A stretch of DNA of 64,000 nucleotides from Elusimicrobiota bacterium (GTDB lineage: Bacteria > Elusimicrobiota > Elusimicrobia > Elusimicrobiales > UBA9959). This document shows positions 32,063 through 55,470 of this stretch, in pieces. Positions within the stretch are counted from its first letter, which is position 1. Every line of letters starts with the position of its first letter. The notes below the pieces were generated by a model. It was not told the origin of the DNA. It saw only the letters and a list, made by a program, of their open reading frames with translations, and did no database searches. The position numbers and the translations under genes were made by a program. The stretch is from contig JAPLKI010000021.1 of NCBI GenBank assembly GCA_026388155.1, forward strand, positions 1 through 64,000, read 5' to 3'.

Positions 32063-32105
32063 AAGGGGTGTAAACCGCCATGTGGTTTCCCCTCCTACGC
32101 AAGTA
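32063..32105. repeat. Partial copy of the G+C-rich dispersed repeat
   Basis: Starts with aaggggtgtaaaccgccatg and continues gtttcccctcctacgcaag, matching the non-hairpin half of the element at 32996-33120 (gggacaccgcataggcgg, then tttcccctcctgcgcaag). The CCAAAAGGGCGGGG hairpin half is missing. It lies in the leader of pmbA. Confidence 0.6.
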
Positions 32106-32241
32106 TTGGCCGTCTGATGCACACCGTGCTTGATACGGCACCTACGCAAGTATTGTGTTGCTTCGCTTCACCTAAAGACCTGTGGCCCGCGAACGGCCAG
32201 CCTCGTTTTGTTCTTTGGCTTTGCCGGTAAGACGCGTTATA

Positions 32242-32979
32242 TTATTTTTCGGTTTCTTCCGGAGAAGCATCCCTGCGGTTTTTCCCGGCGTGATTTTTAG
32301 GGTGTTTTGAAGCGGGGCCCGGTTCAGGGGGCGGCTGGAGAGCCGAAAAAAGCGGAGATTCCTGCTTTCTGGCTTCAATCCAGGCGCTTAGCGTCTCCGC
32401 GTTTTTAACGGCGAAAGTTTCAGGCGTGGTGAAAACAGCCAGTTTGTTCTTTTTGGCTTTTTCCGACAATTCATCCGCGGTGCTTGGCGCGTAAGGGGAA
32501 ATGCCGGAAATAATTTTAAGGTTGTTTTGTGTCAGAGCCAGCAGGTAAAAAGAGCCGTCCTGATTACGGCCGATGGAAACGGTTTTTTCTCCGGCTCCGT
32601 CAAAGGCCTGTGAAAGCCATTCCGGCTTTACATCCGGAGAAAGATGATTTAAAAAAAGGGCTTTTTTCGCGCCGGTATTGAACGCGAGGGTGAAGGCGTC
32701 GGTAAGCTGTTCAGCGGCGGTTTTTTTATTAGTTTCCAAAAAACCGGGGTCTTCGGGATCCAGCCAGGTAAGGTCGGGGTGTGAAGGTGTCTTTTCGTAG
32801 GAAATCAGCAATATGGCGTCTTTGAAATTCTTCGCGAGAGCATACGAATTTTTAAGCAGGTCTCCGGACACATGAAGAGCGCGTTCCTCGCCAAGCGAGG
32901 TTTTAAGTTCGCAATTGGTTTTTCCCGGTTCCGGAGCTTCAGCCAGCAGGATGATACTATTGTTTCTCTTGTCTTTCAT
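32242..32979 (-). CDS. DUF2064 (rSAM/selenodomain-associated transferase 1-like) protein
   Basis: GT-A-like fold related to nucleotidyl/glycosyltransferases. The N-terminus IILLAEAPEPGKTNCELKT corresponds to the family's AKAP-x-PG-x-x-KTRL motif, although the usual Arg after KT is replaced. The central block (ALFLNHLSPDVKPEWL, GRNQDGSFYLLAL) matches the SDxPxL and G-x-DGG-Y-L positions loosely, so catalytic residues may be degenerate. The C-terminal ~45 residues are a Pro/Lys/Glu-rich tail. It is the last minus-strand gene before the strand switch. Function unproven. Confidence 0.6.
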   Translation of the reverse strand: MKDKRNNSIILLAEAPEPGKTNCELKTSLGEERALHVSGDLLKNSYALAKNFKDAILLISYEKTPSHPDLTWLDPEDPGFLETNKKTAAEQLTDAFTLAFNTGAKKALFLNHLSPDVKPEWLSQAFDGAGEKTVSIGRNQDGSFYLLALTQNNLKIISGISPYAPSTADELSEKAKKNKLAVFTTPETFAVKNAETLSAWIEARKQESPLFSALQPPPEPGPASKHPKNHAGKNRRDASPEETEK

Positions 32980-32995
32980 AAAACTTTACTTTGGC

Positions 32996-33120
32996 GGGAC
33001 ACCGCATGGGCGGTTTCCACCCTTTCCCAACGACTGAGGGGACACCGCATAGGCGGTTTCCCCTCCTGCGCAAGCCCCGCCCTTTTGGGCTCCAATGCAA
33101 ATCCAAAAGGGCGGGGCAAG
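32996..33120. repeat. G+C-rich palindromic repeat, copy 1
   Basis: The leader part contains gggacaccgcat-ggcggtttcc twice (32997-33018 and 33040-33061). Then comes tcctgcgcaag and a perfect 15-bp stem gccccgcccttttgg (33074-33088) / ccaaaagggcggggc (33103-33117) with a 14-nt loop. The same block is found in opposite orientation at 35231-35345, so the two copies bracket the nadD and LytR_C genes. No T-run follows the stem. Confidence 0.85.
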
Positions 33121-35230: not shown

Positions 35231-35345
35231 ATCCGCCCCAATGCCTGCCCCGCTCTTTTGGGTTTGCATTGGAGCCCAAAAGGGCGGGGCCTGCGCAGGA
35301 GGGGAAACCGCAGTGCGGTGTCCCTTAAGTAGTTGGGAAAGGGTC
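35231..35345. repeat. G+C-rich palindromic repeat, copy 2 (inverted relative to copy 1)
   Basis: The hairpin gccccgctcttttggg (35247-35262) / cccaaaagggcggggc (35275-35290) has one G-T position. It is followed by ctgcgcaggaggggaaaccg, a gcggtgtccc segment and agttgggaaaggg. This is the reverse complement of copy 1 at 32996-33120, including the gggaaaggg end. It fills most of the gap before pilT. Confidence 0.85.
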
Positions 35346-52734: not shown

Positions 52735-55470
52735 TTAGCGTGTTTCAAGGCGCAAAACGGCCTGTGTTGCGTTGTGCCTTGCCTCTTGCGTAAGCGAGGC
52801 GCCTGCCAGCTGCTCAAGATAAAGTTTAAGCGCGGCCGGTTTATCGCCCGTAAGCTCAAGGCTTGAAGCCAGGTTTAGCGCGGCCGGAAAGTAGTGTGCG
52901 TCAAGCGTCATGGCTTTTTTGAAATCAGCCATGGCTTCCGGGTCTTTTCCGCTGAGGCGTGAGAGCACGCCGCGGGCATTATACAGCGGCGGGGAACCCG
53001 GATACGCGGCCAGTCCCTTCTTTACCAGCTTAAGAGCGAGCCTATAGTCTCCGGCCGCTTGCGCTGTTATGGCCGCTGATTCCGCTCCTCCGGCGTCAAA
53101 AACAACGGCTTTATTCGCCGTTTGCAGAAGCCAAAGCGCCGTGTCTTTTTGGCCGTCTTCAAGAAAAACCGAGGCGGCTGCCGTCAACGGATAAATGCTT
53201 TTGCCAAACGCCGGCGGGGCCTGTCCCGCTCTTTTGGAGTAGTCCGCTGGCGCGGGAGATATGGGCGAGGGAGTTAAACCGAGTTTTCCGGGCCAAAAGG
53301 GCGGGGCCTGCGCGCCCCGGGGTTCTTTGCCGCCGCAGGCGGCTAAATAAAAGAAAATGAGGTTGTCGGGGTTTGAGGCTGCGAGGGTTTTTGCCTGCGC
53401 GCGGGGGCTTTGACCCGCGATTTCCGCTTCATAGGCGGAGTATAAAAGTGAAATTTCCCGCCAGCCGGTTTTTCCGGGCTCCGGGCTAAAATGGTTTATT
53501 GTATTTTGAATCCCGTTTTTCGAAAGTGATATTTCAACGGCGCGTACAGCGGCGGCGGAAAGTGCGGGTATGTTTTTTGTTTCGCAGCCGGACGCCGGCT
53601 TAAGCAGGGCCTCAAGCAGAGCGCCGGCCTGCCGGTTATAATTAAATTCCGAGGAAGGCAGGCTTTTTTCCAGTTCCAGTGAAAGCCGGTCGAGCGCTGC
53701 GCGGGTCTTTTTTCCGTTTTCCAGGGCGGATTGTAATTTCAGATACTCAAGTTTCGGCGTAAGGGCCGTAAGGGAGGCCAGCCGGTTCAATATCGCCTCG
53801 CGCCGCTTCAGCGGAAAATAATAAAGGGTCGAATAAATGTCCTGCTCCCAAAAACTATTATTTGAGGGGCGTATGCCGGCGGCCAGCCGTTTGTCTTTCT
53901 CATAGGGCAGCCCCTTAAGGGAGTTCTTTTCTCTTTCCCACATCCCCTGCGCGAGCGTAAAAGAGACCGCGGCGGATCTCATGTCGTTCAATTCCAGTTC
54001 GCGCAGCGTTTTTACCAGGGCGGGATCGTAGCCGTTCTCCAGCCCGTCGGGGGGCAGCGGTTTTTTTGAGGCCAGGGTATCAAGTATGTAAATTATTTCC
54101 GGGGAGGGGTTTTTGGAAAGTTCAGCGTAGCGCGTAAGGGCGGCAATGCCGTTTTCAGTGCTGTTGAAAGACAGTAAAATTTCCCCTTTCTTCTTGAACA
54201 GCCAGGCGTCGGAAGGTTTAATCGTAAGCCCGCGCGTGACCGCAATGACCGGCTCTGAGGCCCGGCCCGGCCATAAAACAGTTTCATAGACGACCCAGAA
54301 CGAAAAAGCGATCAGAACGGCGAAAACGCCGCTGAAGATAAATACTCCTCCGTCTTTTCTTTCCGCGCCCGGCCAGAAAGCTTTCAGAAAGTCAAATATC
54401 CCGGCCGCAATAATAAGCGTTAAAAGGTAGCGCAGAGGATAAAAATATCTCTCTTCAATGGACAACAGACAATGGATGACTATAAAATAGCCGGCCAGCA
54501 AAGCGAGAAAACGCGTCTCTCTCCGGCGCGAGAAAAAAAGCGCGGCAATAGCGGCCGCCAGCAGCAGGGGGAACATCAGGGCTGCCTGCCAAAGCCTTTT
54601 AACTACGGCTTCAGCGTAGTTAAAAGGCGAAGCCGCCACGGTTTTAAGGGCCCAGGAGTAAACAGATTCCGTTCTGGAAAGGCCGCCGAAGGCCCTGCAG
54701 TCCCCTTCCATGGTAAACACGGTCCCCTTGGCCCCTGTTATCAGGTTACAGGCGCCACGAGCCTCCTCAAAGGGAATTAACCGGCCGAAAAGGGAGTAAT
54801 TGACACGCGCCCAGGGCATCAGCAGGATGTAGGCGCAGATTAAAAAAAGCGACGAGTTAACGGCGTAGCGCCGTAAGGACATATGCTCCCCCCGAAAGCG
54901 CTCCCATAAAATAACCGGCAGAGGGAAAAGGAACATCGGCGAGCGGATGAGCAGAGATACGCCAAGGGCCAACCCGGCTGTTGTCGCGGCCAGGGCCGTG
55001 TCTTTTTTTAGCTTAAGGGTGGCGGCGTGGGCATATAAAAGCAGGGCCAGCGTGTAAACAAGCTGTTCACCTTCTGTGATCTTAATGGTAAAACCCAGCA
55101 ATACGGCTGAAAAAGCGAAAATTAAACCGCGCAGGGGCCCGCCGCCTGCCGCGCCGATGGAATAACAAAGCAGATAAACCAAAAAGCCAGCCAGAAGGAT
55201 AAATGGTTTTATTGTCCCGGGCCAGTCATAAAGGGCCAAAGCGTTCAGCAGGCTGAAAAAAGGCATACTGTAGCTTAAAGCCTTGTCACTCAGGCCGTGC
55301 AGTATAAGTTCGCCGCGATCCGCGTAAGCGTAAAGGCTTTGAATGGAGCAAAGCGTCTGGCGGGTCAATTGCCAAAGCGCCATGAAAAACACGGCCGCGG
55401 CCGCGCAAAAGATAAATATACGGCTTTCAAAAAAATGTTCAAGCGCCGCCCGCAGCTTGTTGTTCACCAT
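52735..55470 (-). CDS. Large membrane protein: GT-C/PMT-like N-terminus with C-terminal TPR region
   Basis: Residues ~20-410 contain about ten membrane segments with the layout of GT-C glycosyltransferases (early luminal YADRGELILHG, later RSPMFLFPLPVILWERF and the ERYFYPLRYLLTLI block). Residues ~430-710 are soluble and helical. The end (about 770-905) is TPR-like (AALNLASSLELTGDKPAALKLY). Residues ~722-750 are a Pro/Ala/Gly-rich insertion between helical units, encoded by a copy of the G+C-rich palindrome (53223-53307). Acceptor and donor unknown; lipid-linked sugar transfer to protein or glycan is the family theme. 911 aa. Confidence 0.7.
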   Translation of the reverse strand: MVNNKLRAALEHFFESRIFIFCAAAAVFFMALWQLTRQTLCSIQSLYAYADRGELILHGLSDKALSYSMPFFSLLNALALYDWPGTIKPFILLAGFLVYLLCYSIGAAGGGPLRGLIFAFSAVLLGFTIKITEGEQLVYTLALLLYAHAATLKLKKDTALAATTAGLALGVSLLIRSPMFLFPLPVILWERFRGEHMSLRRYAVNSSLFLICAYILLMPWARVNYSLFGRLIPFEEARGACNLITGAKGTVFTMEGDCRAFGGLSRTESVYSWALKTVAASPFNYAEAVVKRLWQAALMFPLLLAAAIAALFFSRRRETRFLALLAGYFIVIHCLLSIEERYFYPLRYLLTLIIAAGIFDFLKAFWPGAERKDGGVFIFSGVFAVLIAFSFWVVYETVLWPGRASEPVIAVTRGLTIKPSDAWLFKKKGEILLSFNSTENGIAALTRYAELSKNPSPEIIYILDTLASKKPLPPDGLENGYDPALVKTLRELELNDMRSAAVSFTLAQGMWEREKNSLKGLPYEKDKRLAAGIRPSNNSFWEQDIYSTLYYFPLKRREAILNRLASLTALTPKLEYLKLQSALENGKKTRAALDRLSLELEKSLPSSEFNYNRQAGALLEALLKPASGCETKNIPALSAAAVRAVEISLSKNGIQNTINHFSPEPGKTGWREISLLYSAYEAEIAGQSPRAQAKTLAASNPDNLIFFYLAACGGKEPRGAQAPPFWPGKLGLTPSPISPAPADYSKRAGQAPPAFGKSIYPLTAAASVFLEDGQKDTALWLLQTANKAVVFDAGGAESAAITAQAAGDYRLALKLVKKGLAAYPGSPPLYNARGVLSRLSGKDPEAMADFKKAMTLDAHYFPAALNLASSLELTGDKPAALKLYLEQLAGASLTQEARHNATQAVLRLETR
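53223..53307. repeat. G+C-rich palindromic repeat, copy inserted in frame in a protein gene
   Basis: gtcccgctcttttgg (53223-53237) and ccaaaagggcggggc (53293-53307) form the same stem as the intergenic copies at 33074-33117 and 35247-35290, with two G-T positions and a 55-nt loop. Flanking gggcctg/cctgcgcg also match. It encodes AQAPPFWPG ... AGQAPP in the 911-aa membrane protein, so the open frame is preserved through the element. Confidence 0.8.

Follow-up and report, generated by a model that had tools for sequence, protein, structure and literature searches.

Small palindromic elements inserted in frame within genes of an uncultured Elusimicrobia bacterium

A tiny mobile palindrome is dispersed in dozens of copies through the genome of an uncultured Elusimicrobia bacterium, and about half of the longer copies lie inside genes. 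Judged from the sequences, this selfish DNA appears to add segments to enzymes, usually of 29 amino acids, while leaving the protein unbroken. The copies have common ends, 2-bp target duplications in most cases, filled and empty orthologous sites, and use of three reading frames and both orientations. We are confident that they form a MITE-like family, present in part of the Elusimicrobiota, whose in-frame copies survive host selection. The copy at positions 53223-53307 of the window (the whole stretch of 64,000 nucleotides that was analysed) is very probably one such insertion.

The element in the 911-aa membrane protein gene

An earlier note on this DNA had placed a palindromic element in frame inside the gene for a 911-aa membrane protein, whose membrane character was judged by reading its sequence. 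Both arms of the palindrome were located, in frame within the minus-strand open reading frame. The features of the window are listed below.

52735-55470, minus strand: host gene encoding the 911-aa membrane protein, which has a weak TPR match near its C-terminus
53223-53307, minus strand: long-class palindromic element, 85 bp, whose minus-strand reading encodes APPFWPGKLGLTPSPISPAPADYSKRAGQ
53223-53237, unstranded: terminal inverted repeat arm 1, GTCCCGCTCTTTTGG
53293-53307, unstranded: terminal inverted repeat arm 2, CCAAAAGGGCGGGGC
53221-53222, unstranded: 2-bp target-site duplication, left copy, CT
53308-53309, unstranded: 2-bp target-site duplication, right copy, CT
33074-33117, unstranded: short-class element with the same ends, intergenic, target-site duplication AA/AA
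35247-35290, unstranded: short-class element with the same ends, intergenic, target-site duplication CT/CT

The peptide encoded by the element occupies residues 722-750 in frame. As the 85-bp element and its 2-bp duplication together make 87 bp, 29 codons were added to the gene. For comparison we used two members of the same genus, G021 (Elusimicrobia bacterium GWA2_51_34, as shown by kilobases of sequence matching at 100%) and G022; the window's own genome is designated G000. The G022 orthologue (73% identical) lacks 29 residues, or 87 bp, at the insert, which is the kind of gap that the note had predicted in relatives. In several more distant relatives (for example, G049 and G036) the match splits at the insert segment, with few residues between. 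No orthologue with the peptide and without the palindrome was seen at this site, and peptides encoded by the element ends were found inside many unrelated proteins of the same genome and its relatives. The proposal of an in-frame insertion resembling the Rickettsia palindromic elements (RPE), in a separate lineage, is therefore supported by both the empty orthologous site and the peptides in unrelated proteins.

Two other parts of the proposal fared less well. The insert was thought to lie between TPR-like helices, a placement lent little support by a single TPR_2 match, which fell below its cut-off and covers residues 835-863 in an open frame of 917 residues. The element was also equated with the intergenic ones; the 15-bp ends are indeed common to both, but the intergenic copies belong to the short class (44 bp) and have a different interior. 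Folding of the window copy beyond its arms was weak (z -1.4 on the coding strand and -2.8 on the other). Two size classes, three frames, 2-bp target duplications and unrelated interiors behind common ends go beyond what the note had recognised.

Compound intergenic repeats (GGGACACCGCAT..GCGGTTTCC with CCTCCTGCGCAAG) surround the short elements of the window at 32070-33117 and 35247-35344, and their second motif flanks further copies of the element too.

Copies, ends and target sites

When up to two mismatches were allowed, the arm pattern matched its own genome 113+106 times, compared to 15+15 matches when the pattern was reversed. Pairs of arms numbered 51 at a spacing of 40-70 bp (6 in the control) and 30 at a spacing of 3-33 bp (7 in the control), and this abundance is not due to chance. 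Some pairs are not members of the family, such as matches of 54-57 bp on C7, C16 and C19. From 75 rows, four were dropped (two 53-bp pairs, one 93-bp compound and one shifted register of L021), leaving 46 long and 25 short copies. One further long copy, L130, was joined later for the length and frame tests, giving an examined family of 47 long (82-89 bp) and 25 short (43-46 bp) copies. None of these elements, 43-89 bp in size, contains a transposase gene.

The ends have the consensus GCCCCGCCCTTTTGG...CCAAAAGAGCGGGGC, inverted over 15 bp; L042, L048 and L058, which are near-identical to L009, were left out of the end alignment and of the pooled-flank count. In 44 aligned long copies, 91.2% of arm cells were paired, although copies were found by their arms and conservation of the ends among paralogues is therefore partly ascertainment. 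Arm position 8 was unpaired in 36 of the 44.

Identical 2-bp flanks were present in 34 of the 46 long copies and 16 of the 25 short ones (50 of 71 in total), against a background of 6.6%. The remaining 12 long and 9 short copies have no matching 2-bp duplication, and the flanks of some of these short ones resemble 3-bp duplications. Among the 50 copies with a duplication, C precedes the left dinucleotide in 43 and G follows the right-hand copy in 45. When 96 flanks are pooled, the target is GGC-NN, and its full form is GGC-NN-GCC-like. The commonest sizes plus duplication (85+2 and 43+2 bp) are multiples of three.

The interiors form several groups that are unrelated to one another, with a median pairwise identity among the 47 long copies of 0.49 versus 0.46 after shuffling. 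Covariation in the mobile family was slight (two pairs, with five cells changed on both sides); its score of 0.037 exceeded all 500 shuffles, but the count of such pairs did not (298/500). Four near-identical intergenic copies resembled products of recent transposition, a reading that was set aside because they have longer repeated flanks in common. Near position 3000 of L131, a different palindromic repeat, CAAAAAGGTGCCAGGCACCTTTTTG, adjoins an isolated arm of the family.

Copies within open reading frames

By hand assignment from gene calls, 24 of the 47 long copies lie within open frames, two of them (L007 and L012) probably before the true start codon. Element length was 1 mod 3 in 22 of these 24 (21 being exactly 85 bp) and in 8 of the 23 elsewhere (p=6e-5), or in 20 of 22 and 10 of 25 with L007 and L012 moved (p=6e-4), a test that is partly definitional because a frame-breaking insertion ends the open frame. 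Six of the 25 short copies are inside open frames, and their lengths did not differ significantly (5/6 versus 11/19, p=0.36).

All three reading frames are used by the in-frame long copies (8, 7 and 9 times), and both orientations occur. The ends encode one set of peptides per frame: APPFW..KRAGQ, PALL..QKGGA and PRPFG..PKGRG. Unused sense frames were closed in 30 of 48 cases, with approximately 51% expected per frame under shuffling of the interior, and on this count we rejected an element adapted to stay open in all frames. Since unused frames are open no more often than expected by chance, the element does not have to be constructed for coding, and its survival resembles the outcome of a filter.

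Hosts identified by Pfam include HypF, a PurN-PurH fusion, GlyS beta, RNase HII, an ATP:guanido phosphotransferase (called McsB), MacB-like and FtsX-like transporters, a DEAD helicase, a histidine kinase, a TadE-like protein, radical SAM proteins (one with UPF0004, which we take to be MiaB-like), an ABC2 permease and a Hint-domain protein. A PrmC-type methyltransferase hosts a short copy. The solved relatives of the McsB host are protein-arginine kinases, and its neighbour, a UVR-motif protein that is presumably McsA-like, also hosts an insert. In the TadE-like gene the element stands directly before the TVEL motif.

The membrane protein at L052:51-2510 apparently has two inserts of different interior types, the second reading RRPFGRETDN...PKERG with its arm pair at C22:70593. 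In the C-terminal tail of the G022 DEAD helicase (L242), the insert-like peptide RPRPFGAENRADRPPYNPTH occurs twice, as if duplicated after insertion.

Empty orthologous sites

Orthologues were sought in G021 and G022 for the host genes, the short copies L033, L038 and L075 being left out. The search gave no match for L012, L049 and L061, no usable orthologue for L046 and L054, and none in G021 for L023. Eight host genes differed from an empty orthologue by exactly 29 residues net. Five did so against G022 (the 911-aa protein, HypF, the FtsX-type permease L023, and the McsB-like and McsA-like proteins); the others were L052 against G021, the radical SAM protein L057 against G022 and the ABC2 permease L060 against both.

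Other differences were 38 residues for PurH, 38 and 26 for RNase HII, 27 for L069, 30 (G022) and 8 (G021) for L053, 17 for MacB (G022), 11 for both HypF and L057 against G021, 5 and 26 for L066_1575, and 18 for L066_3018 (G021). The PrmC host of a short copy (L035) differed by 30 and 35 residues, where a clean short insert gives 15. Several of these values look like partly deleted or compound inserts. At the DNA level, the difference was 87 bp in 8 of 12 comparisons, covering 7 genes, and otherwise 117 bp (PurH), 45 bp (RNase HII), 81 bp (L069) and 35 bp (L057, poorly aligned).

For RNase HII, GlyS and PurH, phmmer alignments to solved structures are interrupted around the insert and pick up again beyond it; the aligned stretches are separated by 3-8 chain residues or overlap slightly. 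For McsB the alignment to solved relatives stops before the insert, and the later stretch was not significant (3.5 bits).

Sites filled in more than one species

All three members of the genus carry an insert at GlyS, at the TadE-like gene L008 and at the short-copy site of L032, which indicates that some inserts are old. G021 is also filled at the MacB site and, with 11 residues deleted, at the HypF site, related inserts occupy the DEAD helicase tail in both G021 and G022, and G022 is filled at the MiaB-like and L052 sites, where the arms have decayed (19/30 and 16/30). Over 11 filled orthologous pairs, identity was 277/328 (0.845) in the arms and 2558/3227 (0.793) in the flanks, but 300/494 (0.607) in the interiors.

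This deficit of the interiors suggests a possible, though tentative, addition to the MITE-like explanation, in which a site retains its element ends but acquires the interior of another copy, either by break repair or conversion through the 15-bp ends or by excision and reinsertion at the same site. Interiors were compared among 24 strings, which included 13 of the 21 copies listed for G021. In the TadE-like gene, the insertion point and the AG/AG duplication are common to all three species (element lengths 88, 88 and 85 bp). There the interior of G000 resembles that of G022 (z 7.9), whereas that of G021 resembles neither orthologue (z 0.5 and -0.6) and groups with other copies from G021 (z 6.6). 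L007 shows no relation between the interiors of G000 and G022 (z 0.7), although 28 of 30 arm bases are alike. Against such exchange, only these two sites display it, the L007 copy of G022 lacks an exact duplication (AA/AC), and the left arm of the TadE-like G021 copy is partly decayed. Independent repeat insertion at a favoured target would also look alike, and at these two sites either the interior was exchanged in place or one site was hit repeatedly. Orthologous interiors are moreover still recognisable at GlyS (z 14.1), MacB (12.4) and the DEAD helicase (7.0), although for the G021 MacB copy a different copy within G021 scores a little higher (14.5), and the G021 DEAD copy is just as close to the GlyS copy of G000.

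A more speculative form of this idea, which we regard as rather doubtful, is that the element acts as a frame-neutral slot, in which an installed interior could be exchanged through the 15-bp ends for an unrelated one of compatible length. If so, a host protein such as the TadE-like pilin would exchange a segment of approximately 29 residues at a single step.

Distribution and riboswitch-linked hairpins

In a collection of 84,980 species, all matches to the exact long end-pair pattern came from Elusimicrobia, as 10 stretches in three MAGs; the collection may omit the window's own or a very near genome, and several of the 10 stretches are G021 itself. Nine of the 10 lie in open frames of at least 314 residues, one of these nine (L128) being near the N-terminus. 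A covariance model run on 59 family genomes (up to 76 candidates per genome scored, both strands counted) gave matches in at least 28 of them and in at least 5 of 13 genera. In-frame copies were also present in G012 (g8), G050 (g12) and G055 (g13).

Most of the g12 matches read were hairpins adjacent to riboswitches, unlike the in-frame setting. These hairpins (L269, L271, L273-L278 and L282, near position 1500 in each locus) have the same 15-bp arms, measure 100-133 bp overall and occupy one place in most g12 genomes with a match. Nine of the ten loci scanned have the hairpin directly upstream of a c-di-GMP-I riboswitch; L286 is without one. Many are preceded, by eye, by a promoter-like TTGACA..TATAAT. 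Compensating arm changes occur at position 2 (L276, L283, L284 and L285) and position 8 (L273 and L288). The riboswitch-side hairpin is possibly a domesticated copy or the source of the element. In L295 and L294 (G000 and G022), a c-di-GMP-I riboswitch at 1501-1575 is preceded by a hairpin of another kind, with arms GTCCCGTTAGAGGCGC as judged by eye, and in this leader an 85-bp element lies further downstream, before a HEAT-repeat protein gene.

The riboswitch-side hairpins and their compensating changes, together with arms that outlast interiors in orthologues, would also suit a hairpin retained as an RNA structure useful to the host, with mobility secondary. We consider this unlikely for the family, as orthologous genes with empty, hairpin-free sites are otherwise normal, many copies sit inside enzymes, and some old copies (the MiaB-like and L052 ones) have decayed arms.

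Mobilisation and origin of the inserts

Under the MITE-like explanation, a transposase acting in trans would move the element by its ends, and an insertion whose interior is free of stops in the host frame would simply be translated. With sizes of 85 and 43 bp plus 2 being multiples of three, we propose that this is how stop-free insertions come to be read through. Host selection would then keep insertions in tolerant loops, linkers and tails, whereas frame-breaking ones would be lost or found outside genes, and the added peptide would be mostly tolerated ballast that diverges later. We take an IS30-like enzyme as a candidate mobiliser, with which a 2-bp duplication and a symmetrical target would fit. 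The arm matches listed (100 places) were compared by eye with the arm pairs, and seven stretches with apparently isolated arms were read; no transposase with the element ends was found in them, and none of 10 open reading frames there belonged to a transposase family by Pfam. Of these seven stretches, L130, L134 and L136 hold arm pairs within reach of the search, and L132 holds one too.

Movement by a Y1 (IS200/RAYT-like) transposase through single-stranded hairpins, as for REP/REPIN-type elements, might be suggested by the dispersed, palindromic form of the copies, the unpaired arm position 8 and the Y1_Tnp matches in the genus (16 across three genomes, 4 of them in G000). This route seems quite improbable to us. 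Target duplications of 2 bp are present, which Y1-type (REP/REPIN) chemistry is not known to leave; among the 10 of 16 Y1_Tnp places that were read (3 of the 4 in G000 included), one has an arm pair, which is weak and short.

That the Pro/Ala/Gly-rich stretch is an old linker of the host protein with an accidental likeness to a palindrome is extremely improbable: sites filled in all three genus members (GlyS, TadE-like L008 and L032) could be read in this way, but the same peptides recur in unrelated proteins and three frames, as dictated by the DNA ends rather than by what the protein does, eight host genes have empty sites of exactly 29 residues, 2-bp duplications flank most copies, and the linker is contradicted for the 911-aa gene itself by the empty G022 orthologue and the split matches (for example, G049 and G036).

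Comparison with known elements

RPE are described as small dispersed palindromic repeats that are translated in frame in many unrelated conserved proteins (PMC10969869, PMC2229807). They measure 105-150 bp; their target duplication is tabulated as '?' in PMC2229807, and a conserved encoded peptide is stated as one of their traits (PMC10969869). The Elusimicrobia element is likewise palindromic, present in and outside genes, and in frame in many unrelated proteins. Going by these descriptions, it is set apart from RPE by its 85/43-bp sizes and visible 2-bp duplication. It also has no conserved peptide, the frames being used 8/7/9 and interiors being mostly unrelated, and its host is a member of the Elusimicrobia.

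The element shares with Correia, ERIC and YPAL its non-autonomous nature, terminal inverted repeats, target duplications and some in-frame gene fusions; the 107-bp form of Correia is described as abundantly fused to genes (PMC2229807). Correia and ERIC ends carry TA and those of YPAL do not, whereas the target here is GGC-NN-GCC, and many unrelated types of interior lie behind one set of ends. By its sequence, the element fits the description of a MITE (inverted repeats, duplication, less than approximately 200 bp), the partner enzyme aside. It resembles REP/REPIN in being a dispersed palindrome whose genome contains Y1 transposase genes too. The ends of REP/REPIN are reported to carry a GTAG/CGTC tag (PMC3733652), while the element has target duplications, ends without this tag and no convincing linked Y1 gene among the 10 loci read. 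In a literature survey of titles and abstract openings, part of which named the phylum, no listed paper reported elements of this sort from Elusimicrobia.

Conclusions

In-frame palindromes that invade proteins are best known from Rickettsia, and the Elusimicrobia provide a separate, well-resolved case in an environmental lineage. This case offers empty sites, target duplications and conserved enzyme hosts (GlyS, PurH, RNase HII, McsB and HypF). The idea that selfish DNA may add segments to working proteins purely through a survival filter can now be tested, as can the idea that one site may receive successive interiors.
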